Source: a virus. From it: a stretch of DNA of 27,916 nucleotides. Shown one piece after another: positions 214-27,916 of this stretch. Made by a program: the position numbers and the translations under genes. The notes below the pieces were generated by a model. The model was given only the letters and a program-made list of their open reading frames with translations, did no database searches and was not told the DNA's origin. Position 1 is the first letter of the stretch. Each line of letters opens with the position of its first letter. The stretch lies in IMG/VR virus record IMGVR_UViG_3300008952_002741, positions 1-27,916 of that record. One strand, given 5' to 3'.

Positions 214-227
214 TGTGTATATATATT
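214..227 (+). promoter_or_regulatory. TGTA-type promoter-like element before the MscS-like gene
   Basis: TGTGTATATATA begins 18 bases before the ATG at 232. It resembles the element at 27501 in both sequence and distance to the start codon; the region right before both start codons reads GTATATGG. It belongs to a family of TGTA-rich elements found before several genes in this window. No -35 box is evident. The promoter role is inferred. Confidence 0.35.
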
Positions 228-231
228 GTAT

Positions 232-546: not shown

Positions 547-566
547 GAGCGAAATAGTTATACATC

Positions 567-1633: not shown

Positions 1634-1707
1634 AATATTTTATAACAAAATGTTATTTAGTTGTAATAACTAGTTACCTAGTTTTAAAACGTTATTTGTA
1701 AAAAAAC
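1634..1707. promoter_or_regulatory. divergent promoter region with two operator-like palindromes
   Basis: This 74-base AT-rich gap separates divergent genes. It contains the inverted repeat ATAACA-AAA-TGTTAT (1642-1656) and the perfect palindrome TAACTAGTTA (1667-1676). On the minus strand, TGTTATAAA (1647-1639) looks like an extended -10 element only a few bases before the ATG at 1633. The first inverted repeat overlaps it, as an operator would. For the + strand no convincing -35/-10 pair is seen. The features are visible in the sequence; the regulatory meaning is inferred. Confidence 0.4.
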
Positions 1708-2004: not shown

Positions 2005-2016
2005 TAAAATTAAAAT

Positions 2017-7561: not shown

Positions 7562-7570
7562 GTGTAAGTA
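7561..7570 (+). promoter_or_regulatory. TGTA-type promoter-like element before the first structural gene
   Basis: AGTGTAAGTA begins at the last base of the terminase stop codon and 27 bases before the ATG at 7588. No Shine-Dalgarno sequence is seen in this gap. It resembles the elements at 12562, 17221 and 27501. It could start transcription of the structural block, but this is inferred from recurrence only. Confidence 0.35.
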
Positions 7571-7587
7571 ACGTCAAATAAGCTCTT

Positions 7588-8724
7588 ATGGCTAGTTCAA
7601 TTTCAAGTGGTCAAATTAATGAGGCGGAATTCGTAACTTTTTTTAATAAAAAGCTTTCGGGTTCCTCTACGTATACATCTGGATTTTATACTCACGAAAA
7701 TACATCCGGGTTCGTTCCTCTAGGAGGAGGGCCACAAAGCATGACTGGGTATAGTGGGGAAATCATGTCCAGAACATCTGGGATTGTTTCTAACGTTTCT
7801 GGTGCTTTAGATAACAGTGGAGACTTCCTGTTTAATAAAGCGGTAGATGTGTCAGGTTTTGCGACTGGACTTAATTTTGAAACAAGTGGTTTTCTTCAGG
7901 CTGAAATAGAAACTGTATCTGGAGATTTCTCAACCACTAGCGGAGAATTTCTTAAGTCTGGAAGTTTTTTTCATACAGGTTCTGGAGACTTTTCCATTAA
8001 TTCTCCATCTGGAGCTTTAGCTTTTTCCTCTGGTCATGATAATACCCAAGGGCTTTTTGTTGCTACTGGAGACTCAGCGAACAAAGTTGGTTGGATGAAG
8101 CTTGCTGGATATCCCGAAATGACGGGCTACGTTTCGGTCAGTAGCGGAGATCTCAAAAGTAGCCTAGAAACAACGGGAACAAATCTTACTACATCAATTA
8201 ACAATGTTTTATCGGACGCTTCTACTAATTTCATAGCTAAGAAGAATTTTACATTAGGACTTAAAACTAATCTAGCCGAGTTGGGTGATAATGGAGTCAC
8301 AATGAGAGTTAACTCCAATAAGTCCGTTAGCTTTGATGATGCTAGCGGTGCTTTAGTTACCTTGACTCCGGGATATGGAGCTGATGCCCCCGTTTTCTCT
8401 GTTACTGATAAAGCAGGTTTACCTCTTATTGATGTTTATGACGACGACAGATTAAATTTTGGGCCATATGGTACTAATCCATTAAACGTAAGCGGAGAAA
8501 AGGTTTGTTTGGGTAATTACAGATCTTACTTTAGCGGATCAAATGTGCATTTAAGCGGAGACGTGACAATAAACGACCTATTGACTGTAAGCGGCATATC
8601 CGGAGGGTACGCTATATTTAATAATTTGCCAGTGCATCCTAACACAGGAGGTTTGCCTAATGGAGCTTTATTTATAAGTGGTAACAACACTGCCGGAAAA
8701 GGCAGAACTTTAATGGTGATTTAA
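7588..8724 (+). CDS. Ser-Gly-repeat virion protein, likely fibre or head-associated
   Basis: This 378-residue protein is dominated by Ser-Gly and Thr-Ser-Gly steps spaced roughly every 8-15 residues, with hydrophobic residues around them. The pattern suggests a repetitive beta structure. The N-terminus (S-S-I-S-S-G-Q-I-N-E-A-E-F) is similar to that of the 277-residue protein at 17238 (S-L-I-S-T-G-Q-L-D-L-E-T-L), and both soon continue with L-S-G-S and T-G-F/S-G-F. The C-terminus (N-T-G-G-L-P-N-G-A-L-F-I-S-G, then K-G-R-T-L-M-V-I) looks like a small beta cap. It lies between the terminase and portal. A role as virion fibre, neck or head-surface protein is plausible but not shown. No catalytic motif is visible. 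Confidence 0.6.
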   Translation: MASSISSGQINEAEFVTFFNKKLSGSSTYTSGFYTHENTSGFVPLGGGPQSMTGYSGEIMSRTSGIVSNVSGALDNSGDFLFNKAVDVSGFATGLNFETSGFLQAEIETVSGDFSTTSGEFLKSGSFFHTGSGDFSINSPSGALAFSSGHDNTQGLFVATGDSANKVGWMKLAGYPEMTGYVSVSSGDLKSSLETTGTNLTTSINNVLSDASTNFIAKKNFTLGLKTNLAELGDNGVTMRVNSNKSVSFDDASGALVTLTPGYGADAPVFSVTDKAGLPLIDVYDDDRLNFGPYGTNPLNVSGEKVCLGNYRSYFSGSNVHLSGDVTINDLLTVSGISGGYAIFNNLPVHPNTGGLPNGALFISGNNTAGKGRTLMVI

Positions 8725-8725
8725 A

Positions 8726-10612
8726 ATGACAAAGAAGACAAAAAAGCAAGAAGATCAGGTAAAGCCGATGATGACAAGCTTCGCGGCTTCGCCATATACA
8801 ACAGTCGATCAATCAAGTAGGACACGTAGGAATGTCGGAGGTCAAATAGAGAGGACCAATAGGTTTGAAAATATTGACAATGGTCTTGTTCCTTATAAAT
8901 ATTCTAAAGGAGTGCATAATAAAAGCTCTTTGGATGTGCGGGATGTTGTCATTCTTTGTCAAAAAGCTTATTATAATTTTTCAGTGTTTAGAAATGTCAT
9001 TGATTTGATGACAGAGTTTTCTGCTACAAAAATTTATTTTACTGGAGGCAGCAAAAAGTCAAGAGACTTCCTTGAGGCACTTTATAGAAAAATAGATTTA
9101 CAAAGTTTCTTGGATAAGTTTTTTAGAGAATATTATCGGTCAGGAAATGTTTTTGTTCATAGGTTTGATACGAAAATACAGCCGGATGACTTAAGGAAAA
9201 TTACTCAGACTTATGGGGCTAATTATTTGAAACTCAATGAAAATGAAAGCACTTTACCTGCTAGGTATATAATTTTAAATCCTGCCGATATACAAATGGG
9301 AGGAAATATATCTTTTAGTTCTGGAGTATATTATAAGGTTTTAAGCGACTATGAATTAGAGAGACTAAAGAACCCGAAGACAGAAGAAGATCAACAAGTT
9401 TATGATTCTTTAGATCCAGAAACTAAGAAAGCCTTAAAGGGAAGAAATGTCGGAGTAGTTACTATAAGACTTGATCCTGAAAAGTGCAGTCCGGTATTTT
9501 ATAAGAAGCAAGATTACGAGCCATTTGCCGTGCCTATGGGTTTCCCAGTTTTAGAAGATATTAACTGGAAATCTGAAATGAAGAAGATGGATATGGCTAT
9601 AACCCGGACAACTAATCAAGCTATCCTACTTATTACAATGGGGTCCGAATTGAAAGACGGAAGCCTTAACATTAATCAAAGAAGCATTGAAACAATGCAA
9701 AAACTTTTTGAGAATCAATCTGTTGGAAAGGTTCTGGTATCAGATTATACAACTGAAGCGAAATTTGTTATTCCTGACATTGCTGGTATTCTTGACCCTA
9801 AAAAATACAATGTTGTTAATACTGATATTCAAATGGGGTTAAATAATATTTTAGTTGGGGAGGATAAATTTGCTAACACGAGTATTAAGATTCAAGTATT
9901 TATCGAAAGACTTAAACAAGGTAGAGATGCATTTATTAATCAGTTTTTGGCTCCTGAAATTAAAAGGGTTTGCAAGTCTTTAGGGTTTAAAAATTATCCT
10001 CAGGCTCATTTTCAAGAAATTGAATTAAAAGATAAGACTACTTGGAATAGAGTTGTTGCTCAACTTCTACAATATGGAGTTCTAACTGCAGAAGAAGGAT
10101 TGGAAGCTATCGATACAGGAAGACTGCCTGAGCCACAAGAATCCATAGAGTCCCAAAAGAGATTCAAAGAACTAAAAGAAGAGGGCTATTATAATCCGCT
10201 CGTGGGCGGGGGCCAGCAACAAGAAGGAAGGCCCGAAGGAAGTAAGTCCCCACAGACAACCAAAAAAGTCAGTCCTGTTGGAGAGAATACGAGTGGCTCT
10301 CAAAAGTTTAGTGTTGAAAAAATTAAAGAGAATTTATCTCTAGCCGAAAAGCTCGAGGGTCAGGTTCAAGACCAACTTAAACTCAAATACGAAAATAAAA
10401 GAGTCACTAACAAAATTAGAAATCTTTCAGAGGAAGTGTGTAAGATTATTATGGCTAATGAATCATCAGAAAAATGGTTAGAGAAAAGTCAAGCGTATGT
10501 AGATAACCCATTAGACACTAACTCTGAAAAAGTTAAAGAAGTACAAAATATAGCTTGCGAACATCAAATAGATGATTATTTAGCTAGCTTACTATACGAG
10601 AGTAAAATTTAA
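8726..10612 (+). CDS. portal protein
   Basis: This 628-residue protein begins one base after the previous stop. Residues about 70-145 have the portal-type pattern: a helix beginning V-V-I-L-C-Q-K-A-Y-Y-N, then V-F-R-N-V-I-D-L-M, then a helix ending F-F-R-E-Y-Y-R-S-G-N-V-F-V. A stem and clip-like region follows, with L-D-P-E-K-C-S-P and later I-N-Q-R-S-I-E-T-M. The last 150 residues are polar and low in complexity, with Gln/Gly and Lys/Glu runs, as in many portals. Size, position after the terminase and before the protease and capsid genes, and the helical pattern support the call. The portal forms the dodecameric DNA channel at one capsid vertex. Confidence 0.8.
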   Translation: MTKKTKKQEDQVKPMMTSFAASPYTTVDQSSRTRRNVGGQIERTNRFENIDNGLVPYKYSKGVHNKSSLDVRDVVILCQKAYYNFSVFRNVIDLMTEFSATKIYFTGGSKKSRDFLEALYRKIDLQSFLDKFFREYYRSGNVFVHRFDTKIQPDDLRKITQTYGANYLKLNENESTLPARYIILNPADIQMGGNISFSSGVYYKVLSDYELERLKNPKTEEDQQVYDSLDPETKKALKGRNVGVVTIRLDPEKCSPVFYKKQDYEPFAVPMGFPVLEDINWKSEMKKMDMAITRTTNQAILLITMGSELKDGSLNINQRSIETMQKLFENQSVGKVLVSDYTTEAKFVIPDIAGILDPKKYNVVNTDIQMGLNNILVGEDKFANTSIKIQVFIERLKQGRDAFINQFLAPEIKRVCKSLGFKNYPQAHFQEIELKDKTTWNRVVAQLLQYGVLTAEEGLEAIDTGRLPEPQESIESQKRFKELKEEGYYNPLVGGGQQQEGRPEGSKSPQTTKKVSPVGENTSGSQKFSVEKIKENLSLAEKLEGQVQDQLKLKYENKRVTNKIRNLSEEVCKIIMANESSEKWLEKSQAYVDNPLDTNSEKVKEVQNIACEHQIDDYLASLLYESKI

Positions 10613-10616
10613 TAAA

Positions 10617-11795
10617 ATGAGCGAAAATCAAGAAAATATCCAAGATGTAAATCAGTATTTTGGCGCAGCCGAAATTGATGTTATGGTACCTGATATCCCC
10701 TTGCCTCCTGAGCCAGAGGAAAAAAAAGAAGTTAAAGATGAAGTAGACGGAGCGTTTAAATTCGGCTTCATAGGGGCTGGTCAGGGTGGATCTAGAATTG
10801 CAGAGAGTTTTCATAAGTTAGGCTATAGAAAAATTGGCGTCGTTAATACAGCTCAACAAGATCTAAATTCTATTAACGTAGAGAATAAGCTTTGTATTGG
10901 TGCCGGAGGAGCAGGAAAGGATAGGTCTGTTGCAGCAAAGTGTTTCGAGGAAAGACGAGATGATGTACTTGATTTCATGCGTCGTTCTTTTGGCGAGGAT
11001 GTAGATAGAATTTTTGTATGTGCAGGAGCCGGAGGAGGCTCAGGAGCAGGTATCCTCGTTCCTCTTGTTAAGACTGCCAAAGAGCTACAAGAAACAATTA
11101 AGTCTGGATCAAAGAAGGTGGGAGTCATACTAGCTTTACCGAAGTATTCAGAGGGAAGAAAAGTTAACGCTAATGCCTACGAGACTTTAAAAGAAGCTTG
11201 CACTTTAGTTGATCAAGGAATTGTTTCGCCTTTGGTTATCATAGATAATGAAAAGACCAGTAAGCTCTATTCAAACGTTTCTGTCTCTAATTTCTGGCAG
11301 ACAGCTAATATGAGCACAGCGGGAGTATTTCACTTGTTTAATATGACAGCGTCTAAAGATAGTTCTTACTCATCTTTTGACTCTAGTGACTATAAGAGTG
11401 TTTTAGATTCTGGTATCACTATCTTCGGTGCAACCCCAGTACCACAGTGGGATGACCCAGTAAATATTTCTAGAGCTGTAAGAAGTATTGCCCAGAGTGG
11501 TAGCATGTCTGGAGGAATTGACGTGTCTACAGCAAATGCTGCTGGAGCTATACTTATTGGGGGGAAGGAAGTCTTAGACAACATTCCTCAGTCTAACCTT
11601 GATGAGGCTTTTGATCAATTAAGTAGAATTTTGAGGTCTGGGAGTGTAGTACATAGAGGTATATACAGTGGAGATAAAAATAACTTAACTGTATTTACTA
11701 TAATTGGAGGAATAGCTACTCCTCAGGAAAAATTGAATGAGCTTATGAAACTTGGAGACCTAACTGGTCAAATAGATCCATTAACTAAAGCTTAA
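10617..11795 (+). CDS. tubulin/FtsZ-like GTPase
   Basis: This 392-residue protein has the tubulin-superfamily GTP-binding features. There is a Gly-rich first loop, G-F-I-G-A-G-Q-G-G-S-R (residues 50-60), a second loop G-A-G-G-A-G-K-D-R (95-103), and the signature A-G-A-G-G-G-S-G-A-G (136-145), corresponding to GGGTGTG. The polymer-contact T7 loop is recognisable as S-F-D-S-S-D-Y-K-S-V-L (253-263), aligning with FtsZ N-x-D-x-x-D; both aspartates are kept and Asn is Ser. It could therefore polymerise and hydrolyse GTP. An acidic, proline-rich stretch of about 45 residues precedes the domain. The gene sits directly between portal and virion genes. Phage tubulins (PhuZ) position capsids in jumbo phages; a similar role here is inference. 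Confidence 0.88.
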   Translation: MSENQENIQDVNQYFGAAEIDVMVPDIPLPPEPEEKKEVKDEVDGAFKFGFIGAGQGGSRIAESFHKLGYRKIGVVNTAQQDLNSINVENKLCIGAGGAGKDRSVAAKCFEERRDDVLDFMRRSFGEDVDRIFVCAGAGGGSGAGILVPLVKTAKELQETIKSGSKKVGVILALPKYSEGRKVNANAYETLKEACTLVDQGIVSPLVIIDNEKTSKLYSNVSVSNFWQTANMSTAGVFHLFNMTASKDSSYSSFDSSDYKSVLDSGITIFGATPVPQWDDPVNISRAVRSIAQSGSMSGGIDVSTANAAGAILIGGKEVLDNIPQSNLDEAFDQLSRILRSGSVVHRGIYSGDKNNLTVFTIIGGIATPQEKLNELMKLGDLTGQIDPLTKA

Positions 11796-15545: not shown

Positions 15546-16715
15546 ATGAGACTTAAGTTAAAAAATACCCCAGAACAAGTTGAACTTATCAAAGCCATGG
15601 GCTCTAAGAATCAGCTTGTAGCTCGTGAAGCTTCAGAGGCTTTTGCGGCATTTCTCGGCCCTGTAATCCAAAAGGTTTTGCAGCAGGCCGCTACGGCTGG
15701 AGCAATCTATACTGATGCTCCGTTTAATCAAGATGAGGGAGCTAGTTATCCTTTAGATCTTTATTACAACGAAACCAATGATGGTTACGTTAGCGTTTGG
15801 TCCCAGAATGTTGCTGGTGGTCTTCCGACCTCACAGGACGTATCTGCGATTCAAGAGCTGAAGATCGCAACATATCGTTTGGATTCAGCTGTTTCTATCA
15901 CCAAGAAGTATGCCAGACAGGCAAGACTTGATGTTGTAAGCAAGCTTATTGAGCGCATGTCTCAGGAAGTTCTGCTTAAGCAGGAAAGAAATGCTTGGGC
16001 TGTGGCTCTATACGCTCTGGCTAACGCTAGCACTGCTTCTGTTACTGCTAATTCAGTTGGGATTACGGATCTGGCCGCTGGCTCTCACGTTATTCCAGCT
16101 CACAACACTAACAGGTTCCAGCTTCAAGATCTTAACAAGCTGATGACTCTTAATAAGAGAATCAATCAGTCTTGGGCAGACGGTACTCCTGACACCGCTT
16201 ATAGCTCTGGTATTACAGATCTGTATGTTAGCCCTGAAATCAAAGAGCAGATTCGCGCTTTCGCTTATCAGCCTATGAATACAAAGGGTGCAGGACAGGA
16301 TACGCCAAGAACCGACGTTGCACTTCCAGATAACATTCGTACCGATATCTTTAATGCCGCTGGCATGCAGGAGATTTACGGTGTGAACGTTGTTGAGCTT
16401 AACGAGCTTGGCATTGGACAGAAGTACAACACCTTGTTTGATGAGTTTGACTCTGGCAACATTGCTCCTCATGGTTCTACTGCTGGTACAGCTATTGCTT
16501 TTACTGGTGGCACTCATGAGCTTTGTGTTGGTGTTGATAACAGTAAGGGTGCGTTTGTTCGCGCTATTGCTCAGGAATCTGATACTGGCGATACTTTCAC
16601 CACTCAGCCTGATGATCAGTTCACTCAACGTAATGAGAGAATTGGTTTCTACGGCTCTTTGGAAGAAGGACGCGTTTGTATCGACTCTCGTGCAGTCGTT
16701 GGACTCACCGTCTAA
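15546..16715 (+). CDS. major capsid protein
   Basis: This 389-residue protein lies after the protease/scaffold and decoration genes. It has an AGGAG site ten bases upstream and a strong terminator right after it, as expected for the most abundant virion protein. The N-terminal helix (T-P-E-Q-V-E-L-I-K-A-M-G) may act as a short delta-like segment. Residues about 40-150 include P-V-I-Q-K-V-L-Q-Q-A-A, S-Y-P-L-D-L-Y-Y-N and S-I-T-K-K-Y-A-R-Q-A-R-L-D, as in HK97-fold capsids with an E-loop and spine helix. The end (R-I-G-F-Y-G-S-L-E-E-G-R-V-C-I-D-S-R-A) is a typical A-domain close. Codon choice includes more CGT/CGC and CTG than the early genes. The identity is strongly supported by context. Confidence 0.82.
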   Translation: MRLKLKNTPEQVELIKAMGSKNQLVAREASEAFAAFLGPVIQKVLQQAATAGAIYTDAPFNQDEGASYPLDLYYNETNDGYVSVWSQNVAGGLPTSQDVSAIQELKIATYRLDSAVSITKKYARQARLDVVSKLIERMSQEVLLKQERNAWAVALYALANASTASVTANSVGITDLAAGSHVIPAHNTNRFQLQDLNKLMTLNKRINQSWADGTPDTAYSSGITDLYVSPEIKEQIRAFAYQPMNTKGAGQDTPRTDVALPDNIRTDIFNAAGMQEIYGVNVVELNELGIGQKYNTLFDEFDSGNIAPHGSTAGTAIAFTGGTHELCVGVDNSKGAFVRAIAQESDTGDTFTTQPDDQFTQRNERIGFYGSLEEGRVCIDSRAVVGLTV

Positions 16716-17237: not shown

Positions 17238-18071
17238 ATGCCTTCACTTATTAGTACAGGTCAGCTAGATCTTGAAACCTTAAAAGAATATCTATTAAGG
17301 CCAAACCCTGAAAGTTTATCCGGTAGTGCAAACAACATTACCGGATTTTATCCATATACGGGTAACCCTGCAGACTTTGCTCACACAGGTTATATAGATT
17401 CTGTTAGTGGGGATATATCTGGTTACATAGATACAGTTAGTGGCGTACTAGCTTCTAGGATTGGCGAGTCTGGTGTAGCCTTGAGTGGCTATACTAGTGA
17501 AATTCTTACTGAATTAAAGTCTGACATAGATTTTATAAGCGGAAAGAATATTGAGTTAAGTGGTAATTATTCTTCCGCTAACGTACTGTCCTTAGAGAAC
17601 CAAGCTGATATTGACTTACTAAGTGGTAGTCTTATTACTTCAGGGCAAGACTTATCTCTTTTAATTACTGGAGAAAGCGGTCAAGGTGTTAGCGGTTTTG
17701 TAACAGGTTTCGTAGATACAACTAGTGGCGCTTTAGATGTAAAAATCACAAACTTAGACACCAATCTTAGAAATCACGTAGAAGAGGACTATCTTTCCAA
17801 AAGAAATGAGTCAGAGCATGTTTCTGGCTCTGTAACTTTCGCGCAGCCACCTATTCTTGAGCAAGGAGTAAAGGTACAGAGGGTAGCTGATCATGATGAA
17901 ATAGCCAATTACCAAAGTGGGGCTCATATGTATTCTATGGTGAGTGGGGTGACTGTAGTCGGAGCTGCTCATCAAGTATTAACAACCTATTTACGTTATC
18001 CCCATAGCGGAGACTCCGCTAGGCAAAATTTAATAGTTGGGTCTTTTATGTATTCAGGAGTCATACCATAA
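17238..18071 (+). CDS. second Ser-Gly-repeat virion protein
   Basis: This 277-residue protein has many Ser-Gly and Thr-Gly steps, such as S-V-S-G-D-I-S-G-Y-I-D-T-V-S-G-V, separated by 6-14 residues. The start at 17238 gives M-P-S-L-I-S-T-G-Q-L, similar to the N-terminus of the 378-residue protein at 7588, so the two look like paralogues. Residues about 185-235 break the pattern (V-E-E-D-Y-L-S-K-R-N-E-S-E-H, then Q-P-P-I-L-E-Q-G-V-K-V-Q-R-V-A-D-H-D-E). The C-terminus returns to hydrophobic strands. Its stop overlaps the next start (TAATG), linking it to the LamG fibre genes. A fibre or fibre-adaptor role is likely but not proven. Confidence 0.6.
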   Translation: MPSLISTGQLDLETLKEYLLRPNPESLSGSANNITGFYPYTGNPADFAHTGYIDSVSGDISGYIDTVSGVLASRIGESGVALSGYTSEILTELKSDIDFISGKNIELSGNYSSANVLSLENQADIDLLSGSLITSGQDLSLLITGESGQGVSGFVTGFVDTTSGALDVKITNLDTNLRNHVEEDYLSKRNESEHVSGSVTFAQPPILEQGVKVQRVADHDEIANYQSGAHMYSMVSGVTVVGAAHQVLTTYLRYPHSGDSARQNLIVGSFMYSGVIP

Positions 18072-20023
18072 TGGCATCTTCAAATGGACATATGCGTAAA
18101 AAAACTGATGGTTTAGTCTTGTATACTAATGAGCTTTACCATAAAAGTTACCCCGGTAAGCCTACTACAAACCTGATACCTACTGCAGAAGATAACAGTG
18201 ATTTTTCAGCTAGACTAGGAGGGACTCCAAACGCCTTCTTTAGGATATATAAAGATAAAGACCCTAGTCAACAGGGAATGTATAAGTCTCTTGCTTCTGG
18301 CCACATGTCAAGTAATGATGTAGTTTATAAGTATATAGGCTGGTCTGATGAGTACTATTCTGGTGGAGGAGTGAGTAATGTTTCTCATGGTATGCATACC
18401 TTTTCAAGTAGCTCTAATTCTTCATTGAGGCTAGAAATAGGAACAACTTATACTTTTTCCTGTGAGGTTTTTGTTTCTAATCTACATAATAGAAATTCTT
18501 CTTGGCCAGTTATCTCAGCTAAGGCTACGGATCAGAATGGTAAGCACTATGGCTATTACGATTTTTCTAATAAGGGGAAATGGCAGGTGGTATCTGTTAC
18601 TTTTACTCCCAGTTTAGAGAGCTTAGTGACCGCAACATCTGGCACGTCAGGAACTTCAGGAACTAGTGGTACATCGGGGACTAGTGGCATAGTGTCTACT
18701 ACTCTTGGGCACACTATGTATTTCTGGCCTCATGAAACTACTACTACAAGTAGTGAAAGGCAACATGGATATATATTATACAAAAACCCTCAATTAGAAA
18801 AAGGTTCCAGTAGAACTCAATTTACAAGATATGAGAAACCAAGAAAAAACGAAAACAGCTTAAAAGATATAAGTGGAAATAAAAATTCTTTAAGTATTCT
18901 AAAAAATGATTTTGATGATAGTGCTTTGCCTACTTATGGGAAGGGCAGATTTGCGAATTTAGGCCTTACGAATTCTGCTGTTGGGTATTCTTCGAGTTTT
19001 TCAGTAGGCGGTACAAATAAAAAATCTTATGAATTTTGGGTAAATCTTTCCTCTGTTGATGAAGGGATATCTACGCTTTTATATTCGGACATAACAAGAG
19101 GCTCTAACTTTGTTGGCTCTGAAGCAATCTCAAGAAGACAACACATATACATAAGTCAAGGAAGAATATATTGCTCTTTTTATAATAAATTTGGATTGAT
19201 CTATAATGCTTTTACAACTAGTTCTCATGTACTGAATAATTCTTTATGTCACGTTATAGTATCTGTTAATATGACTAAGAGCGCGGGTAGCAAGATTAGG
19301 TTTTTTGTTAACGGCGAGGCAGTCCCTTCTTCTTCAGTAGCCTCCTTAACTGCTCCCAAGAATTTAAAAGCGAGAGCTATTGCCTCGGCAAGAAAATCTT
19401 TTACCATAGGCTCTACAATAAATTATAGAATTTCGGCTTATAATGAAGAAGGGGAGTCTATTGCTACTTCAAATAAGAAAGTGGTTATAAAAAACAGCAA
19501 TACAGCTGTTAGTCTTACTTGGTCGAATGTGCCAGAGGCGACAGGCTATTATGTGTACAGATCGATAAACAATGTAAATTCTTTTGGAAGTCATTCTCTT
19601 TTGTCAGATGTACCAAACGATCTGTCTTTCTTTTCAAATGCTCAAGGTAAGGCTGACTTTAGAGTGTCTGCGGCATCACACTTTACTACTTTTAATGATG
19701 ACGGTTCAGGTATTCCTCAAGCAGGTTTTCCTAAGGACAGTTCTTTCGCAAGTAAGTACGACATTACCAACAATAGCTTTTACGATGGTTCAGATTTAAA
19801 ACTTACTATAGGAGACTTTACTAAAGTAGGGAAAACTGATAAGACAGCATCAGAAGGGAAAATATATCAAGTCTCTGTTTATAATAAACCTTTTTCATTG
19901 AGTGATGCTAGGAACAACTATTTGCAATCATCTAAAGACTTTAATATAACTAGTAATACTGCAGATTATAGCTTTTCTGCTTCTGCTGGTACGTCGACAG
20001 GTGGATACGGAGGAGGATACTAA
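18071..20023 (+). CDS. LamG-type fibre/adhesin with nested FN3-like domain and TSG repeats
   Basis: The N-terminal region of this 650-residue protein (residues about 8-185, from T-D-G-L-V-L-Y-T-N and T-N-L-I-P-T-A-E-D) looks like a carbohydrate-binding beta sandwich. Six consecutive Thr-Ser-Gly units follow at 189-206. A concanavalin/LamG-like domain starts near 315 (K-S-Y-E-F-W-V-N-L-S-S) and reaches R-F-F-V-N-G-E-A-V near 414. A fibronectin type III-like segment, about 429-500 (P-K-N-L-K-A-R-A-I-A, then G-Y-Y-V-Y-R-S), appears to interrupt it. LamG-like strands resume with L-K-L-T-I-G-D and G-K-I-Y-Q-V-S-V-Y-N-K-P-F-S-L. The C-terminus is G-G-Y-G-G-G-Y. It is probably a host-surface-binding virion fibre. 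Confidence 0.7.
   Translation: MASSNGHMRKKTDGLVLYTNELYHKSYPGKPTTNLIPTAEDNSDFSARLGGTPNAFFRIYKDKDPSQQGMYKSLASGHMSSNDVVYKYIGWSDEYYSGGGVSNVSHGMHTFSSSSNSSLRLEIGTTYTFSCEVFVSNLHNRNSSWPVISAKATDQNGKHYGYYDFSNKGKWQVVSVTFTPSLESLVTATSGTSGTSGTSGTSGTSGIVSTTLGHTMYFWPHETTTTSSERQHGYILYKNPQLEKGSSRTQFTRYEKPRKNENSLKDISGNKNSLSILKNDFDDSALPTYGKGRFANLGLTNSAVGYSSSFSVGGTNKKSYEFWVNLSSVDEGISTLLYSDITRGSNFVGSEAISRRQHIYISQGRIYCSFYNKFGLIYNAFTTSSHVLNNSLCHVIVSVNMTKSAGSKIRFFVNGEAVPSSSVASLTAPKNLKARAIASARKSFTIGSTINYRISAYNEEGESIATSNKKVVIKNSNTAVSLTWSNVPEATGYYVYRSINNVNSFGSHSLLSDVPNDLSFFSNAQGKADFRVSAASHFTTFNDDGSGIPQAGFPKDSSFASKYDITNNSFYDGSDLKLTIGDFTKVGKTDKTASEGKIYQVSVYNKPFSLSDARNNYLQSSKDFNITSNTADYSFSASAGTSTGGYGGGY
18635..18688 (+). 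repeat. six tandem Thr-Ser-Gly codon triplets
   Basis: Nine-base units encoding T-S-G occur six times with varied codons (ACA/ACG/ACT, TCT/TCA/AGT/TCG, GGC/GGA/GGT/GGG). The codon variation suggests selection on the protein repeat and not recent DNA slippage. The same tripeptide dominates the gene at 27520. Confidence 0.9.
20009..20017 (+). promoter_or_regulatory. ribosome-binding site that fixes the start at 20025
   Basis: GGAGGAGGA lies inside the last codons of the upstream gene (its G-G-Y-G-G-G-Y tail) and seven bases before the ATG at 20025. It supports that ATG over an in-frame GTG at 20001. Confidence 0.8.
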
Positions 20024-20898: not shown

Positions 20899-21939
20899 AT
20901 GAATTTAGCTAACTTCTATGAGGAACAAGCTCCTCTATTTAATACTGAGAAATCAAGGGGTCAGAAAAGGGCTAAAGATGTCATTCTAAAGATCAACTCT
21001 TTTTCTTTCGGCGACACTTTAGCAGCGACACCGACAATAAGAAAACTAGCTCAATCCTACGCCAAAAAAATAATTGTTTGTACCAGTAAGCCTTTCATAT
21101 TTGACCACAATCCACATGTAGAAAGAACTATTCATACAGATGATTTTAAAGATGAATATTACAATGACTTTGAAGTATTTAATACTTTTAATTCTGTGGG
21201 TAAACCTGACAAAAATGGAATAGAGGCTAAATATGGGCTTTATGACATAAGAAGAATACATTGCATAGAAATAGGTTTTGACCTTAGGCCAGACGAAATG
21301 CACTATGATTATTACCCCGGACCTGTAGAATTCGAAAGAGAAGATCAAGATTTTATCAACAATAATGATTATGTAGTTATACACGTTGGCAAGAACTGGC
21401 CCAGTAGGACTTGGCCCGAAGAAAGCTATAAAGAGCTAATAAAAGGCCTAAATGATCATGGTTATAAAGTTGCTTTAGTTGGTTTTGACCAAAAGACAGA
21501 GCCCGGACAATACAGCCATGATAAGTCTTGTTATGCTTTTGGAGATTTCCAGTTTGGTGGCATTAGCTTTATGAACAGAACAAGCGTAGACCAAGACTAT
21601 TTTATCACTAAAAACTCTATGGCTTGCATAACTCTTGATACTGGGCAACTGCACTTAGCGGGTTGCACAGATACTTACATAATACAAATAGGGTCCTCAA
21701 TCAATCCATTATGGAAAGCGCCGTATAGAAAAGGTAGTCAGAAATATAAGTACACTTTTGTTGGCGGATCCTGTTTTTCCTTTTGCGCTTCTGACCCTAA
21801 ATACTCCGTAATAGAGCATGCTACAATAAATAGCGTGCCCCCTTTACCGTACTGTTTGGAAGGTAGGCCTAATTATGACTGTCAACCTTCATGGGAGACG
21901 GTTTTAAAAACCGTGATTGAAAATGAAGGATGTTTTTGA
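20899..21939 (+). CDS. GT9-family (heptosyltransferase-like) glycosyltransferase with Cys4 tail
   Basis: This 346-residue protein has the GT-B plan of ADP-heptose-type transferases. The N-terminal block is I-L-K-I-N-S-F-S-F-G-D-T-L-A-A-T-P. The C-terminal half has V-V-I-H-V-G-K-N-W-P-S-R-T-W-P, then Y-K-V-A-L-V-G, and the donor-site block L-D-T-G-Q-L-H-L-A-G. Near the end are four cysteines, C292, C296, C319 and C328, followed by Q-P-S and a final helix. The same order of elements, metal-type Cys4 then a C-terminal helix, occurs in the TibC-like domain of the 1277-residue protein. The donor and acceptor are unknown. It opens the modification island and shares its last 17 bases with the next gene. 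Confidence 0.8.
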   Translation: MNLANFYEEQAPLFNTEKSRGQKRAKDVILKINSFSFGDTLAATPTIRKLAQSYAKKIIVCTSKPFIFDHNPHVERTIHTDDFKDEYYNDFEVFNTFNSVGKPDKNGIEAKYGLYDIRRIHCIEIGFDLRPDEMHYDYYPGPVEFEREDQDFINNNDYVVIHVGKNWPSRTWPEESYKELIKGLNDHGYKVALVGFDQKTEPGQYSHDKSCYAFGDFQFGGISFMNRTSVDQDYFITKNSMACITLDTGQLHLAGCTDTYIIQIGSSINPLWKAPYRKGSQKYKYTFVGGSCFSFCASDPKYSVIEHATINSVPPLPYCLEGRPNYDCQPSWETVLKTVIENEGCF

Positions 21940-22258
21940 GAAACACAAAGGTAATGTAGCCTACCCACTTGCTGCCAAGATTGAAGTCGTAAGTAAACAG
22001 CCTATATTTACTTGGGATAAGTTTGGCTTATTTAGCCCTCCTTTTTTTGACGACGGCAAGTTGTTTTTTTCTTGTGTGGTTCGAGAAAGTCTTCCTTTCA
22101 GTTTTCTTAGAGCTACCATGTTTATTAATGATGCGCCTTTTGAGGAACATGTATTTAACATGCCAAACCCCGGTGAGGATGACGAATTTTGGTGGTCTCA
22201 TGATTATATATTAGAAATAATTAATAGCTTGAGTATTAAATTTTATGGTTGCAGATAG
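21923..22258 (+). CDS. unknown small protein inside the glycan-modification island
   Basis: The ATG at 21923 gives 111 residues (MKDVFEKHKGNVAYPLAAKI); an in-frame TTG two codons upstream is less likely. It overlaps the preceding gene by 17 bases and the following one by 14, so it is translated as part of the island. It has many aromatic residues (P-I-F-T-W-D-K-F-G-L-F, D-E-F-W-W-S-H-D-Y) and no recognised motif or membrane helix. Overlaps with two enzymes suggest a real gene with a role in the same pathway, such as a partner of the carbamoyltransferase-like protein. This is not demonstrated. Confidence 0.6.
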   Translation: MKDVFEKHKGNVAYPLAAKIEVVSKQPIFTWDKFGLFSPPFFDDGKLFFSCVVRESLPFSFLRATMFINDAPFEEHVFNMPNPGEDDEFWWSHDYILEIINSLSIKFYGCR

Positions 22259-23267
22259 TGTTATAAGCTTCTACGCAGGTAATGGGCATGATGGAAACAT
22301 AGCTGTTCGCGTCGGCGAATCTGTTTTTATATTAGAGTTCGAAAGAATATTTGGTAGTAGATACTTCACAAGATTACTTAATCCTTTTTCTACACATTCT
22401 GAGGGTATATCAAATGAAGATATAGTAAATTTTTTGGACTACATTAATGCTATATTAATTAATAGAGGTATATTCGTTAGTGGCTTTGATGTAGGTTTGT
22501 TTGATTGGGAAACCTCAGAGGAGGTAGCCGACCTTGTAAGAGGCTATTTTAAAATAAAAAAAGTTTTTCATACAGATCAAGATGTGACTTCGCATCATAA
22601 GGCTCATGCTGCTGGTTCTTTTTTATCTAGTGGATTTGACGATGCTATAGTGTTTAGTTATGATGGAGGAGGAAACGATGGAACTTTTTGTGTTTATAGT
22701 CTAAATAAAAACAATATAAATTTTAACCAGATCAACCCTCGTTTTGATAATCCCTTTCCAACTAAATACGCTAGGATGGGAAACTTCATAAAAGAATTGA
22801 GGAAACCAGAGCTAGGAGACTTACTCGAAACAAGCAAACATGAACATAATGGAGTGAGTTATCCGGGAAAAATAATGGGTCTCTCGGCTTACGGAAGTTT
22901 CGACCAAGGTCTTTACGATAAAATATACAAGTATTTTAATACTTATGATTCTAAGAACTTAAATGTTTCAGAGGCGTATTTGAGGTATTTTGGCGATTTA
23001 AGCTTTAATTGCTTAGAAGGAAAAGAGGCTTATGATATGGCCTTTAATTGTCAGTTAGCTTTTGAAAATATTTTTATAGAAAATTTCCAAATTTATTGGA
23101 ATAACTCTTATAAGAATGTTTGTCTAACTGGTGGAGGAGCCCTGAATGTTTTACTGAACGAAAGATTGAGTAAGACTTACGAAGATGTAAACTTTTTCGT
23201 GCAGCCTTCTCCGGGAGACAGCGGCATATCTTATGGTATGTTAGTTCATTATTTAATTTATAGATGA
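22245..23267 (+). CDS. NodU/TobZ-type carbamoyltransferase, N-terminal domain only
   Basis: This 340-residue protein matches the Kae1-like N-terminal domain of carbamoyltransferases. It has G-H-D-G-N-I-A-V (residues 14-21), an E-F-E-R-I-F-G-S-R block, S-H-H-K-A-H-A-A-G-S-F (116-126, with the HHxxHA metal/ATP motif), S-Y-D-G-G-G-N-D-G (138-146), then C-L-T-G-G-G-A-L-N and Q-P-S-P-G-D-S-G-I-S-Y-G near the end. Full-length family members are about 550-600 residues, with a C-terminal domain after the last motif; here the chain ends within about 15 residues of it. It may make carbamoyl-adenylate for a separate acceptor-binding partner, or be a remodelled enzyme. The next gene begins in an ATGA overlap. 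Confidence 0.85.
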   Translation: MVADSVISFYAGNGHDGNIAVRVGESVFILEFERIFGSRYFTRLLNPFSTHSEGISNEDIVNFLDYINAILINRGIFVSGFDVGLFDWETSEEVADLVRGYFKIKKVFHTDQDVTSHHKAHAAGSFLSSGFDDAIVFSYDGGGNDGTFCVYSLNKNNINFNQINPRFDNPFPTKYARMGNFIKELRKPELGDLLETSKHEHNGVSYPGKIMGLSAYGSFDQGLYDKIYKYFNTYDSKNLNVSEAYLRYFGDLSFNCLEGKEAYDMAFNCQLAFENIFIENFQIYWNNSYKNVCLTGGGALNVLLNERLSKTYEDVNFFVQPSPGDSGISYGMLVHYLIYR

Positions 23268-26200
23268 AGAGAAGAATATTATATGTACCAATGCACTTGT
23301 CTACTGGCGGCTCTCCCCAGTGGTTATACGAGCTTATAAAAGTTAGCATGCTAGAAAGCGAGGTTTTTGTAGCAGAATTTAATAATTATGGTTCATATAA
23401 TATACAAAAAGATAAAATAATTAATCTTGTTGGCAAAAAAAGTCATGAATGCATAGGGCCTTGCTTCTCCGATAATTGGAAAGAAGAGAGAAACAGGCTT
23501 TGGGAGATTATACAAGAATTTAAACCACACGTCATACATTTTAATGAAATACCAGAAAATTTTGAATATAATGGATTTCCAGAAGATTTACTAGAAAAAA
23601 TATATAACAAAAACAGGAGGTATAAAATATTAGAGACTTGTCACTCTAATTCTTTTGATTTCAGTAACAAAGTTCATATTCCAGATGGTTATGTTTGCGT
23701 TTCCGAATATCATCCAGAGAAGATAAAAGAAGTCTTTCCAGATGCCGAATGCTATATATGGGATTATGAAATAACACCTAAAGAAAGACCGGACAGAAAA
23801 GAGACCTTATTGAGCCTCGGTTTGGATCCCGAGAAAACTCATATATTAAACGTCGGCCTTTTTCATGAAAATAAAAATCAAAAGTTTATTTATGAAATAG
23901 CCGAGCAAATGTTAGACAAGAATATAGAGTTTCATTTTATAGGGAACGATTGTTATCTATGTAATTGTGGTATAGAGAATACAGATTTACCTAATTGTAA
24001 AGTTTGGGGAGAAAGAAATGACGTTGATACTTTTTACTCATGCATGGACTTATTCTTTTTTCCGTCTAAAAGAGAGCTAAACCCTCTAAGCGTAAAAGAG
24101 GCTATATCTTGGGGTATGCCTGTTTTAATGAATAGAATAGAGTCTTGCGATCTATATAAAAAATATGAAAATAATGATAAGGTAACTTTTATAGATGACG
24201 TAGACGCAAAAGAGTATATTAAGAAAATCATTAAAAACCCAAGAAAAAAAGAAGATTTAAGAATAGCTTTGTATACAAGTTTCTACAATAACGCCAGATA
24301 CATACCGGGATTGTATGAACAAATATACAACCAAACTCACTCTGACTGGAAGTGGTTCGTAACAGATGATTTCAGTAAAGATGATACGGTAAAAAGCGCT
24401 CTTCTTGATTTAGCCTCTAGGGATAGCAGAGTAATTTATTGCGAGCAAAAAAGTAAAAAAGAAATGTTTTGGAATCCTCAGCATTTTATATCTGAAGATT
24501 GTGATTATCTTGCTTTAGTAGACGCAGATGATGGTATATACCCTAAAGCTTTAGAGTTTTTAAATCATATGCTGAAAAAAAATCCAGACGCATTCAGCTT
24601 CTCCACTTGGTTTCATCAGTATAAAAATAACTTAAATGAAGTAAGAAATATAACACACACAGACTACTCTTATCCAAAAGGGGACTGGCACAACTACTTA
24701 AACAAACATGAAAATGATTTAAAAAATGATGGTTTCGACTGGAGTTATTTGAGGAGCTTTAGATTTTTCGGAGCTTTGAGAGGGCATAAAAATAATAAAA
24801 AAGTTGAAATAGATGTAGACTATCCAGTAGAAACTGTCTATGAAGATTCAATAAGAATGGCTCAATTACAGAAATATGGAGACTACATTCTTTTTCCTAG
24901 ACCTATGTACAAAGTCTTGAATCACGAAGAGTCTCATGCTACGCCTTCTAACGTAAACGAGAAGCAAAATAGAGTAGGTAAGCAAAATCTTTACAACTCT
25001 ATAAAATCAACAAAAGACTTTAGTCATAATACAATATTACCAACTTATTATGATTTTTTTGATGAGCTTTGTGCGTTATCTAGGTCAAGCATTCATTTTG
25101 AAAAAGATAGAAAAAAGATTTGTTTAATTACTAATAGATTTGTTTCTGACTCCAATATAGAAAAAATGTCTGATCTTTATTTTGATCATGACTTCTGCAT
25201 AAATGAATTCTCTGAATCTGTAGATTACTTTTTTATGAGCTGTGATAGCTTTACTGATAGTCAGCTTAAGGATATATTTGAAAAATTAAAGAACATAAAT
25301 GGAGATTTTGAATTAAACTTATATTGTTTGCTAGAAGGTTTAGGCGACGCTTCTTTTGAAAAGGCAAAATCAAGAATATTAAAAATATTTAATAAGCCCA
25401 TGAGTTGGAATCATTTTTGTAGAAATTCATTTTTTAAAATACCTTTTAAAAATAGCGATAATAACAAAAGTAGTAAAAAGAAGGTGTTAATTGAGCTTTG
25501 TAGTTCTTCCTTAGGCGACAGTATCGCTTGGACTCCATACGCGGAGCAATACAGGCAGGAGAATGATTGCGAAGTATACCTTTTCACCTACAAAAACGAT
25601 CTATATCGAAATAGTTATCCAGACATAACTTTTGTTGATGATATGGGAGATGTGAAAAATATAGACTTTGACAATAAGTTTAGAATAGGTTGGTTTAATG
25701 ATACTCCTGATTGGGTTAAAAATCAAGAAGAGCAGAGAGCGGGGTCTTACTACCTTGGATTAAAGCATAAAGAGATTAAGCCAAAGATAGATGTTAAAAA
25801 CAAAAATAAGGTAATAGATGGTAAATATGTATGTATATCTGTTCAGTCCACAGCTCAGTGTAAATACTGGAATAACCCAAAAGGTTGGAATGAGATTATA
25901 AAGTATTTAAATTCAAAAGGTTATAAAGTAGTCTGCATAGACAGGCACGCAACTTATGGTGGAAAAGGTAAGTTTAATAAAGTTCCTTCTGGTGCCATAA
26001 ACAAAACAGGAGATTTCGACTTACAAGAGAGAATAACCGACTTATATCATTGTGATTTTTTCATAGGTCTTGGCTCTGGGCTTTCTTGGCTCGCTTGGGG
26101 TGTCGGTAAAGATGTGGTTTTGATAAGTGGTTTCAGTAATGAACAGACAGAATTTTATACACCTTATAGAGTGATAAATAAAAATGTCTGTAATTCTTGT

Positions 26201-27097
26201 TGGAATAGGCATGAGTTTGACCCAAATAATTGGAGCTGGTGCCCGGATCATGAGGGCACGAAAAGACAATTCGAGTGCTCGAAGCAAATAACTTCTAAAA
26301 TGGTAATAGAGGAAATAAATGAGCTACTAAAAAATAACTATCATTTTCATGACTCCAAAATGACGAGAATGCTGAAAAGAATAACATCCTCCAGAGACTC
26401 AATTAAAGGTTGGCCTGAGGCTTGGGCGCACATCTATGATGAAGTGTGCGTTAAAAAGCAATATGAGTATGGTTTTAAAGTAAATGAAGGGGATTACGTG
26501 GTGGATTTGGGTTGCTCTACTGGAGCTTTCTATGAAAGCATAAAAAATAAAAACGTACAGTATTTAGGGATTGAGGCCGCTAAGCAAAATTTAGAAGATT
26601 TTAAATCTATACTTCTTCCAGAAGATAATGTTGTTCTAAAGCATAATATAGTTACTAATACCAAGCATGGATTAGTAGCAATAGAATCTAATGATTACGA
26701 TAGTGGTAAAAAATCTCAAGCAGAGGCTCTATCTTTAGAGCAAATAATACTTTTAGGAGATAAAAGAAAAATAGACTTTCTTAAATTTGACATAGAAGGA
26801 GAAGAAATAGCAGTTTTAAGTGATGAAAATTCTTACAATTTATTCATTAAGTACATTAAAACTTTTTCTGGAGAATATCATTTAATTGAAAACTCTGCCA
26901 CGATGACCGCGTATAGCAAAGAAAGCATGAAGCCCATATCCACGCTCAAAAAATTAAAAGATGACGAAAGAGTAAATTTAAAAATTTATTCAGTTGATGG
27001 TATAGATATAACTGAGAGCTTCTGGGAAAAAGCTGACTTTGAAAAAGAAAAACATAATTTTTATACTGAAGCAATAATCACGGGGAAAATAACATAA
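23264..27097 (+). CDS. 1277-residue fusion: GT4, GT2, TibC/BAHT-like heptosyltransferase, FkbM methyltransferase
   Basis: Four domains are visible. Residues 1 to about 330 form a GT4-like GT-B enzyme (M-H-L-S-T-G-G-S-P-Q-W near the start, and E271-x7-E279 followed by A-I-S-W-G-M-P). About 332-600 is a GT2 domain (A-L-Y-T-S-F-Y-N-N-A-R-Y, D-D-F-S-K-D-D, and DxD at 420-422 in V-D-A-D-D-G). A less clear linker runs from 600 to 737. About 738-1030 is GT9-like with S-S-L-G-D-S-I-A-W-T-P and a four-cysteine site, C976, C979, C993 (W-C-P-D-H) and C1005 (R-Q-F-E-C), the signature of TibC/BAHT protein O-heptosyltransferases. About 1048-1277 is an FkbM methyltransferase (V-V-D-L-G-C-S-T-G-A-F, 1079-1089; K-F-D-I-E-G-E-E). 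Together they could build and cap a glycan. Confidence 0.82.
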   Translation: MKRRILYVPMHLSTGGSPQWLYELIKVSMLESEVFVAEFNNYGSYNIQKDKIINLVGKKSHECIGPCFSDNWKEERNRLWEIIQEFKPHVIHFNEIPENFEYNGFPEDLLEKIYNKNRRYKILETCHSNSFDFSNKVHIPDGYVCVSEYHPEKIKEVFPDAECYIWDYEITPKERPDRKETLLSLGLDPEKTHILNVGLFHENKNQKFIYEIAEQMLDKNIEFHFIGNDCYLCNCGIENTDLPNCKVWGERNDVDTFYSCMDLFFFPSKRELNPLSVKEAISWGMPVLMNRIESCDLYKKYENNDKVTFIDDVDAKEYIKKIIKNPRKKEDLRIALYTSFYNNARYIPGLYEQIYNQTHSDWKWFVTDDFSKDDTVKSALLDLASRDSRVIYCEQKSKKEMFWNPQHFISEDCDYLALVDADDGIYPKALEFLNHMLKKNPDAFSFSTWFHQYKNNLNEVRNITHTDYSYPKGDWHNYLNKHENDLKNDGFDWSYLRSFRFFGALRGHKNNKKVEIDVDYPVETVYEDSIRMAQLQKYGDYILFPRPMYKVLNHEESHATPSNVNEKQNRVGKQNLYNSIKSTKDFSHNTILPTYYDFFDELCALSRSSIHFEKDRKKICLITNRFVSDSNIEKMSDLYFDHDFCINEFSESVDYFFMSCDSFTDSQLKDIFEKLKNINGDFELNLYCLLEGLGDASFEKAKSRILKIFNKPMSWNHFCRNSFFKIPFKNSDNNKSSKKKVLIELCSSSLGDSIAWTPYAEQYRQENDCEVYLFTYKNDLYRNSYPDITFVDDMGDVKNIDFDNKFRIGWFNDTPDWVKNQEEQRAGSYYLGLKHKEIKPKIDVKNKNKVIDGKYVCISVQSTAQCKYWNNPKGWNEIIKYLNSKGYKVVCIDRHATYGGKGKFNKVPSGAINKTGDFDLQERITDLYHCDFFIGLGSGLSWLAWGVGKDVVLISGFSNEQTEFYTPYRVINKNVCNSCWNRHEFDPNNWSWCPDHEGTKRQFECSKQITSKMVIEEINELLKNNYHFHDSKMTRMLKRITSSRDSIKGWPEAWAHIYDEVCVKKQYEYGFKVNEGDYVVDLGCSTGAFYESIKNKNVQYLGIEAAKQNLEDFKSILLPEDNVVLKHNIVTNTKHGLVAIESNDYDSGKKSQAEALSLEQIILLGDKRKIDFLKFDIEGEEIAVLSDENSYNLFIKYIKTFSGEYHLIENSATMTAYSKESMKPISTLKKLKDDERVNLKIYSVDGIDITESFWEKADFEKEKHNFYTEAIITGKIT

Positions 27098-27107: not shown

Positions 27108-27500
27108 ATGAAAGTAGAAGTATCAGATGGAGAGGTTTTGGATAAGCTATCTATCTTGGAAATCAAATTAGAAAATATACAAGATGGGTCTAAACTAGCT
27201 AATATCGGAAAAGAACACGTTTCATTATTGGAGACTATTGGTCAGCCAGATTGGCATGAACATGTGTTTAGAAGACATGGGTTTTATGACCAACTAAAAG
27301 GTATAAATAAAGAGCTATGGGATATAGAAGACAAGATAAGACTAAAAGAAAAAAATCAAGAATTTGACTCTATTTTTATTAAGTTAGCGCGAGACGTCTA
27401 CTATACTAATGACAAAAGAGCTGAAATAAAGAAGGAAATTAACATTTACACTGGATCCAATCTATTAGAAGAAAAATCTTACGAAGATTATGTCCAATAA
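27108..27500 (+). CDS. DUF6165-like protein of glycan loci
   Basis: This 130-residue protein starts 10 bases after the giant fusion. It opens with V-S-D-G-E-V-L-D-K-L-S-I-L-E-I-K-L-E, continues with L-W-D-I-E-D-K-I-R near the middle, then F-I-K-L-A-R-D-V-Y-Y-T-N-D-K-R-A-E-I-K, and closes with G-S-N-L-L-E-E-K-S-Y. I associate this pattern with a small uncharacterised family (DUF6165) often encoded beside glycosyltransferases in bacteria. It is helical and soluble, with no catalytic signature visible. It is probably the last gene of the island and co-transcribed with it. The family name comes from pattern memory and was not searched. Confidence 0.65.
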   Translation: MKVEVSDGEVLDKLSILEIKLENIQDGSKLANIGKEHVSLLETIGQPDWHEHVFRRHGFYDQLKGINKELWDIEDKIRLKEKNQEFDSIFIKLARDVYYTNDKRAEIKKEINIYTGSNLLEEKSYEDYVQ

Positions 27501-27519: not shown

Positions 27520-27916
27520 ATGGCGGTCAAGAGGTATGTCGGAGATAAGCTAGTAGGCTTAGATGCTGAAAGGGATGGTGTTTTACACACTGTATCTGAC
27601 GGCGCAAATTTTTATGCAACTGACGATCCCTACAATGTATACATAAAAGAGAACGAAGCTTGGCAGCAGATTAGCGGTGGCGGAGGTGGTACAGATGGAA
27701 CTGCAGGTACTTCAGGTTCTAGTGGTACATCAGGTTCATCTGGCACTTCGGGAAGCTCCGGTACATCAGGTTCTAGTGGTGTAGATGGAACTTCAGGTAC
27801 TTCAGGTTCATCTGGTACTTCGGGAAGCTCAGGAACTTCCGGTACAACAGGTTCTAGTGGTGAAGATGGAACTTCAGGTACTTCAGGTTCATCTGGTACT
27901 TCGGGAAGCTCTGGAA
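27520..27916 (+). CDS. collagen-like Gly-Thr-Ser/Gly-Ser-Ser repeat protein, 3' end outside the window
   Basis: The ATG at 27520 gives 132 codons, open to the window edge. The first 50 residues (M-A-V-K-R-Y-V-G-D-K-L-V-G-L-D, then Y-A-T-D-D-P-Y-N-V-Y and A-W-Q-Q-I-S) look like a small beta anchor. After a run of five glycines, every third residue is Gly with T-S or S-S between, interrupted by D-G-T units. This is a collagen-like Gly-X-Y pattern without proline. Such regions form trimeric stalks in phage fibres. The dense Ser and Thr would offer many O-glycosylation sites, and the gene follows the glycan-modification island directly. Its binding head, if any, lies beyond the edge. Confidence 0.75.
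   Translation, partial: MAVKRYVGDKLVGLDAERDGVLHTVSDGANFYATDDPYNVYIKENEAWQQISGGGGGTDGTAGTSGSSGTSGSSGTSGSSGTSGSSGVDGTSGTSGSSGTSGSSGTSGTTGSSGEDGTSGTSGSSGTSGSSG
27694..27916 (+). repeat. in-frame tandem DNA repeats encoding Gly-Thr-Ser/Gly-Ser-Ser
   Basis: Units beginning GATGGAACT start at 27694, 27784 and 27865, giving periods of 90 and 81 bases (30 and 27 codons). Inside each unit a shorter 18-base step encodes G-T-S-G-S-S. The 27784 and 27865 units share a long near-identical stretch, so recent duplication or length variation is likely. Confidence 0.88.

Follow-up and report, generated by a model that had tools for sequence, protein, structure and literature searches.

The virus record IMGVR_UViG_3300008952_002741 (27,916 nucleotides, positions 1 to 27,916, referred to here as the window) carries an open reading frame, P0001, at positions 23264–27097 on the plus strand. 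P0001 consists of 1277 amino acids (aa) with no internal stops and lies upstream of a collagen-like fibre open reading frame, its proposed acceptor. A first-pass annotation, made from the sequence alone, had described P0001 as GT4 glycosyltransferase (GT), GT2, GT9-like and FkbM methyltransferase domains in one chain, and all four are found above the curated Pfam cut-offs. That list omits P0001 residues ~600–730, which form a predicted alpha/beta segment and not the barrel of TibC. The segments of P0001 are as follows.

23264..24259 (+): GT4 domain, P0001 residues 1–332 (PF00534, 46.7 bits; EX7E at 271)
24260..25060 (+): GT2 domain, residues 333–599 (PF00535, 44.3 bits; DAD at 420)
25061..25465 (+): alpha/beta segment replacing the TibC beta-barrel, residues 600–734 (AlphaFold2 secondary structure)
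25466..26353 (+): TibC/Aah-type glycosyltransferase domain (domain 3), residues 735–1030 (TIGR04414, 328 bits; PDB 4rap)
26354..27097 (+): FkbM-type methyltransferase, residues 1031–1277 plus stop (PF05050, 24.7 bits; DIEGEE at 1176)

The Pfam matches lie at residues 184–333 (Glycos_transf_1), 339–474 (Glycos_transf_2), 837–986 (Glyco_transf_9, 33.9 bits) and 1145–1187 (Methyltransf_21), the last being the narrowest of the four with a cut-off of 22.7 bits. The GT4, GT2 and FkbM domains each show their catalytic motifs: EX7E, DXD (as DAD), and VVDLG (residue 1079) with DIEGxE, respectively.

The NCBIfam model TIGR04414 (hepto_Aah_TibC) matches P0001 positions 735–1020 with 328.3 bits (cut-off 200) over profile positions 79–373 of 374, and a phmmer search of the PDB aligns domain 3 with TibC (4rap) at E = 1.2e-65. 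Lipopolysaccharide (LPS) heptosyltransferase models III and I give only 14.3 and 12.1 bits on P0001, both below their cut-offs of 170.2 and 185.3. The AlphaFold2 model of domain 3 (32-row alignment) has a mean predicted local distance difference test score (pLDDT) of 93.4 and displays a GT-B fold like that of TibC. VIA-align places TibC at the top with Z = 34.5 (288 residues, 2.3 Å) compared with 21.8 or less for other GT9 structures, and Foldseek is in agreement. The bit scores and Z scores rule out an LPS heptosyltransferase. The profile and structure comparisons proposed in the first-pass annotation both come out on the side of TibC, and the contrary outcome it had named, matches to LPS heptosyltransferases alone, did not occur. 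It is close to certain from these comparisons that domain 3 belongs to the TibC/Aah enzyme family.

Active site residues are conserved as well. P0001 Asp752, Thr863, Lys867, Arg923, and Trp942 correspond to TibC Asp110, Thr226, Lys230, Arg286, and Trp305, and Cys976, Cys979, Cys993, and Cys1005, which the first-pass annotation had placed correctly and likened to an iron site, align with TibC Cys339, Cys342, Cys358, and Cys370. In TibC, Asp110 is described as the catalytic base, the other four residues as binding the donor, and the four cysteines as binding iron in a finger with a role in dimerisation and acceptor recognition (PMC4358343). The virus set of 75 sequences, clustered at 95%, yields 46 non-redundant domains, the window included. 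The four cysteines, Asp110, Lys230, Trp305, and Phe368 (TibC numbering) are invariant in 46/46, with Thr226 conserved in 44 and Arg286 in 30; Lys230 falls within one of the patterns used in the search, while the four cysteines and Asp110 lie outside it. Chance cysteines are ruled out by the 46/46 invariance. Judged from family and iron finger, P0001 is very likely a protein O-glycosyltransferase.

With respect to the donor, the adenine Arg expected for ADP-heptose is present in P0001. TibC Pro300 is reported to set stereoselectivity for heptose (PMC4358343); the equivalent residue is Gly in P0001 and Ser in Aah, and across the 46 domains Gly occurs 27 times and Ser 19 times. A search of 36 enzyme-bearing records for heptose pathway genes gives matches to TIGR02199 in seven, none above cut-off, and to gmhA in two, one above cut-off (the megaphage LR756504), which rules out a phage-encoded heptose pathway as a general rule. 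The LR756504 gmhA lies at record positions 430182–430640 (within L441, LR756504.1 425000–462000), ~27 kb from the TibC-type gene.

Domain 3 departs from TibC on its N-terminal side and at the thumb. The TIGR04414 match in P0001 begins only at profile position 79, and a barrel profile built here yields no match in P0001. An AlphaFold2 model of residues 600–1030 (8-row alignment, mean pLDDT 75.2) shows a leading alpha/beta part, with blocks at pLDDT 75–91 in model residues 11–130, and no barrel. Similarity of positions 600–730 to a methyltransferase-like fold (Z = 9.5 over 123 residues) is near the tool's stated noise and is not used. At the thumb tip, TibC Phe265-Val266 aligns to Gly902-Lys903, and thus a pair of hydrophobic residues is not found there. 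TibC is reported to need both the N-terminal beta-barrel, for TibA heptosylation, and the hydrophobic thumb tip (PMC4358343). Since both are missing, P0001 is assigned to a branch of its own within the TibC/Aah sequence family rather than to the bacterial autotransporter heptosyltransferases (BAHT) in the strict sense, and a TibC-like dodecameric ring is unlikely, as is an autotransporter substrate. Of the autotransporter heptosyltransferase proposed in the first-pass annotation, the TibC/Aah-type domain is supported and the autotransporter part is not. The barrel profile matches 47 of 62 virus-side sequences (the 46 non-redundant ones, 14 others, and L318 and L387; loci are numbered with L). 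The 15 with no match are the window, L001, L002, L003, L008–L014, L017, L030, L059, and L318.

The search of the virus collection gave 73 loci with relatives, and from a bacterial genome collection the best 80 of 528 relatives were used. Architectures in the viruses vary: besides the window type there are a stand-alone form of ~391 aa with the barrel and a form of ~718 aa that has the barrel as well as a different N-terminal part. When the P0001 parts are compared by blastp, the full order GT4, GT2, domain 3, FkbM is a rare arrangement, seen in only three of the 46 (the window, L011, and L017). GT4, GT2, middle segment and domain 3 with no FkbM match occur in six close relatives (L001, L002, L003, L008, L009, and L010), and the remaining members show none or one of the extra parts. 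The four-enzyme fusion of the first-pass annotation is thus present in the window but varies in composition among relatives. In L002, L008, L009, L013, L014, and L030, a second copy of the domain follows as a separate open reading frame, with the four cysteines kept.

In the tree, a branch with a Shimodaira–Hasegawa-like approximate likelihood ratio test (SH-aLRT) support of 100 sets apart 59 of 60 virus rows, together with the metagenome-assembled contigs L318 and L387; the exception, virus row L047, groups on the bacterial side. A search of 50,697 deposited phage records (E = 1e-5) gave four matches, namely Microcystis phage Mel-JY01 and three uncultured records of 636–735 kb, two of them equal in length. 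No close relative of the window is found among deposited phages; the capsid-protein candidate (15546–16715) has no match there and the terminase is ~25% identical in its best rows. Among the 80 bacterial loci, 41 hold a large low-complexity surface-type open reading frame rich in Ser, Thr, Gly, Asn, and Ala, situated 100 bases or less from the enzyme in 23. A collagen repeat is found in one of the 80, the one placed within the virus branch of the tree.

Two open reading frames follow P0001 in the window.

27108..27500 (+): DUF6165 protein, candidate accessory partner (PF19662, 50.2 bits)
27520..27916 (+): collagen-like GTSGSSG-repeat fibre, proposed acceptor (PF01391, 47.4 bits, cut-off 27.2; 3′ end cut by the record end)

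The window fibre shows 25 G-X-Y triplets with Ser at Y in 20. A relative in L003 is 963 aa in length, with a Collagen match of 327.8 bits and Peptidase_S74 (S74) at its end. In 20 fibres together, counting runs of five or more Gly-X-Y, there are 1769 triplets with Ser or Thr at X in 93% and Ser at Y in 88%; proline occurs once in all X and Y positions. Modification of TibA by TibC is reported to fall on Ser rather than Thr, as does that of AIDA-I by Aah (PMC4358343). Glycosylation of threonine is cited as a means of stabilising collagen (PMC3368898).

The fibre is the very next open reading frame, on the same strand and 56–94 bases downstream of the enzyme, in 10 of the 46 non-redundant loci, which belong to subclades other than that of the window. 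Seven more loci, the window included, have DUF6165 and then the fibre with a gap of 19–22 bases; in L002, L008, and L009 the second copy of the domain intervenes. A strict collagen repeat is found in 19/46 enzyme loci (0.60 Mb) vs 2/120 fibre loci with Peptidase_S74 (1.13 Mb), with a Fisher p of 1.4e-10 that overstates independence because the 46 loci are related. The repeat is spread over the window clade, the L048–L070 clade, the L060/L061 clade, and scattered other rows. By DNA pattern, two of the three deposited enzyme records examined have a repeat elsewhere in the record, and none of 30 S74 records.

The association is also seen in reverse. Of 41 long collagen-repeat records, 20 have a TIGR04414 protein above cut-off, vs 1 of 21 long S74 records (p = 4.8e-4), and in that sole S74 record the enzyme adjoins a collagen repeat. 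As a control, GT2 is above cut-off in 16/41 and 4/21, respectively. The collagen-repeat records are longer, 3.47 vs 1.15 Mb in total, and record-level odds are therefore inflated; per megabase, the ratio is ~7.6 for TIGR04414 and ~2 for GT2 (lengths and ratios summed by hand). The GT9-like neighbour in the window was of no use as a control query, having only four loci. Within the 20 double-positive records, loci of ~4 kb around the enzyme show the repeat in none, but stretches of 16–20 kb, searched with a somewhat more permissive expression and not counting L195 and L196, show it ~9 kb or less from the enzyme in 14. The expected number is 4.9 with one random repeat locus (P = 1e-5) and 8.2 with two (P = 0.005).

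DUF6165 matches are found in 24 loci, several of them near-copies or overlapping, and all 24 also carry the glycosyltransferase (214 loci with the enzyme in all). In L059, positions 6792–9272, the TibC-type domain and DUF6165 are fused as one open reading frame. DUF6165 is present in three of the 41 collagen-repeat records (two above cut-off), all three with the enzyme. It is not confined to enzymes lacking the barrel, as G081 has a TIGR04414 match from profile position 16 and DUF6165 eight bases after. DUF6165 is perhaps an accessory protein for acceptor recruitment.

Mel-JY01 (PP395634.1), an isolate with a recorded host, has a gene row similar to that of the window: a repeat open reading frame, a structural protein, a 1227 aa enzyme, and a second repeat open reading frame. 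The first, at 2–3052 on the plus strand, gives 179.4 bits for the collagen repeat in its part 635–3049. The enzyme consists of GT4, a middle part and a TIGR04414 match at profile positions 9–373 (317.4 bits), so the barrel part is present; its fusion differs from that of P0001. The record labels the enzyme only "methyltransferase FkbM", and the repeat is overlain by minus-strand hypothetical genes. Those at 1–651 and 739–2298 (L195, 1–2298) are the complement of the plus-strand collagen repeat and look spurious. The phage record LR756501.1 (735 kb) contains the enzyme and 1117 minus-strand matches to the collagen-repeat pattern, from 103558 on (first places listed, 103558 to 105593), possibly a giant collagen-like protein. 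LR756504 carries the enzyme and shows no repeat by DNA pattern.

Immediately upstream of P0001 the window contains three open reading frames, giving the order GT9-like protein, 113 aa open reading frame, carbamoyltransferase, P0001, DUF6165, and fibre, all on one strand with overlaps or gaps of less than 20 bases.

20899..21939 (+): GT9-like glycosyltransferase, 346 aa, cysteine-rich tail (Glyco_transf_9, 39.7 bits; best NCBIfam RfaF, 26.4 bits)
21917..22258 (+): 113 aa open reading frame overlapping both neighbours (no Pfam or PHROG family at E = 0.1)
22245..23267 (+): carbamoyltransferase, N-terminal-type domain only (PF02543, 73 bits; phrog_1601 Nol-like), overlapping the start of P0001

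No TIGR04414 match is listed for the GT9-like protein. Its tail shows CFSFC and then two further cysteines, which might be a variant of the metal finger, and its protein cluster is found in 15 of the 46 loci, some members being longer. Elsewhere in the window, a Tubulin/FtsZ-like protein is situated among structural genes (10617–11795; PF00091, 45.5 bits, with a weak PhuZ match), and 2706–3656 shows a weak PhyH-type dioxygenase match (15.7 bits, below cut-off). A different row is seen in L034 (1–7526): an S74-like fibre end (by eye), an Ig-domain protein with Pro-Thr-Glu repeats, an O-FucT family protein, a 2-oxoglutarate (2OG)-Fe(II) oxygenase, a GT4-like protein, and the TibC-type enzyme. 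The row resembles a set of hydroxylating and glycosylating enzymes that serves a different repeat type.

Gene order and the association with the repeat suggest that P0001 probably glycosylates the phage's own collagen-like fibre, a reading held with moderate confidence. The TibC/Aah-type domain would transfer the sugar of a nucleotide sugar, probably host-derived, directly onto serines of the Gly-X-Ser triplets encoded by the downstream gene, and GT4 and GT2, perhaps together with the upstream GT9-like protein, would extend it. FkbM and the carbamoyltransferase would cap the glycan, and DUF6165 may assist in delivering the acceptor, the enzyme having neither the barrel nor the thumb tip of TibC. 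The assembly line envisaged in the first-pass annotation, in which domain 3 would add the first sugar, GT4 and GT2 extend it and FkbM cap it, is a plausible hypothesis, with a carbamoyl group as another possible cap. The effect may be a stiffer collagen triple helix in a nearly proline-free fibre, a masked or tuned fibre, or both. More tentatively, at somewhat under an even chance, an adhesin-glycosylating family may have been turned into a phage collagen O-glycosylation machine, fused in some clades to extending and capping enzymes, in which sugar replaces hydroxyproline and, in the window clade, DUF6165 replaces barrel and thumb as acceptor recruiter.

Several observations weigh against modification of the fibre by P0001. 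The window domain is without two parts that TibC requires, and most of the enzyme-bearing records searched show no detected heptose pathway gene. The enzyme is absent in 21 of the 41 collagen-repeat records, which may be fragments, have other enzymes, or be unmodified. Conversely, 27 of the 46 loci have no strict repeat in the DNA examined, and only five of those 27 records have one elsewhere by DNA pattern. At the locus level the reverse test gives the enzyme in 9/120 collagen-pattern loci vs 2/120 S74 loci (p = 0.059), many loci being short. In the 14 records with a nearby repeat, the repeat shares the strand of the enzyme in nine and lies opposite in five, and in only one is it immediately beside the enzyme (86 bases), so strict next-gene order is limited to some clades. 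Ser at Y is 76% in records with the enzyme vs 80% in those without, which rules it out as a signature of the enzyme; repeats with and without the enzyme look alike, and the repeat alone therefore does not demand this enzyme.

Some of these observations would fit an enzyme acting on the host surface, be it LPS, capsule, or an adhesin of the host, during infection so as to exclude other phages, with the fibre adjacent because both lie in a shared host-recognition region. Glycosyltransferases beside tail fibres have been interpreted in this manner in pelagimyophages (PMC7029224), GT2 is also commoner in the collagen-repeat records, the TibC barrel is absent, and the opposite-strand repeats are consistent with it. 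Yet the collagen-repeat association exceeds that of GT2, strict next-gene order is found in more than one subclade, and the iron finger, described as acceptor-recognising in TibC (PMC4358343), is invariant, so that action on the host surface is judged unlikely. Slightly less probable again is O-glycosylation of another virion protein (7588–8724, 17238–18071, or 18071–20023) or of a host protein, the collagen repeat being a bystander. By eye, several window proteins are rich in Ser and Gly, 18071–20023 has a short TSG run, and 22 of the 46 enzyme records have no collagen repeat by either test; against this, the repeat recurs as a neighbour in several subclades. Viral glycosyltransferases that hypermodify DNA are known (PMC12619734), but glycosylation of phage DNA by P0001 is very improbable, as both fold and active site match enzymes that glycosylate protein. 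That no base-modification gene is recognised carries little weight here, only ten window open reading frames having been scanned against Pfam.

Glycosylation of the fibre would have parallels in known systems. P0001 shares with TibC/Aah (BAHT, TIGR04414) the GT-B fold, the Asp/Thr/Lys/Arg/Trp site, the four-cysteine iron finger, and a gene often found beside a Ser-rich surface protein. It differs in being phage-encoded, in lying on a separate branch, in being fused to GT4, GT2, and FkbM, in lacking barrel and thumb tip in the window clade, and in having as neighbour within the window record, which ends there, a collagen-like fibre instead of an autotransporter. In streptococcal serine-rich repeat adhesins, multi-domain glycosyltransferases likewise elongate glycans carried by a Ser-rich repeat protein, but the first sugar comes from GtfA/GtfB and not from an iron-finger GT9-type enzyme. 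The mimivirus collagen-modifying enzyme is of a family unrelated to TibC/Aah, the GPT-type repeats of Bacillus BclA receive their sugar from other enzymes, and virion glycosylation in mycobacteriophages employs other glycosyltransferases and is not known to involve a collagen repeat. The mimivirus protein, a bifunctional lysyl hydroxylase/glycosyltransferase of an amoeba virus, is nevertheless described as adding sugar to the virus's own collagen, and the spore protein BclA as a glycosylated bacterial collagen-like protein, in that case cellular (PMC8968730). Mycobacteriophages are reported to carry glycans on capsid and tail proteins (PMC12619734). A phage enzyme of the TIGR04414 family or a glycosylated phage collagen is undescribed among the matches listed in the open-licence PubMed Central literature (titles and abstract starts).

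If the fibre is the acceptor, this would be a phage system for protein glycosylation in which both enzyme family and substrate can be named, present in many unrelated-looking virus records. Mel-JY01, a named isolate, makes this testable. It would also provide a functional link for DUF6165 and a possible account of what keeps long collagen-like fibres stable when their 1769 triplets contain a single proline.

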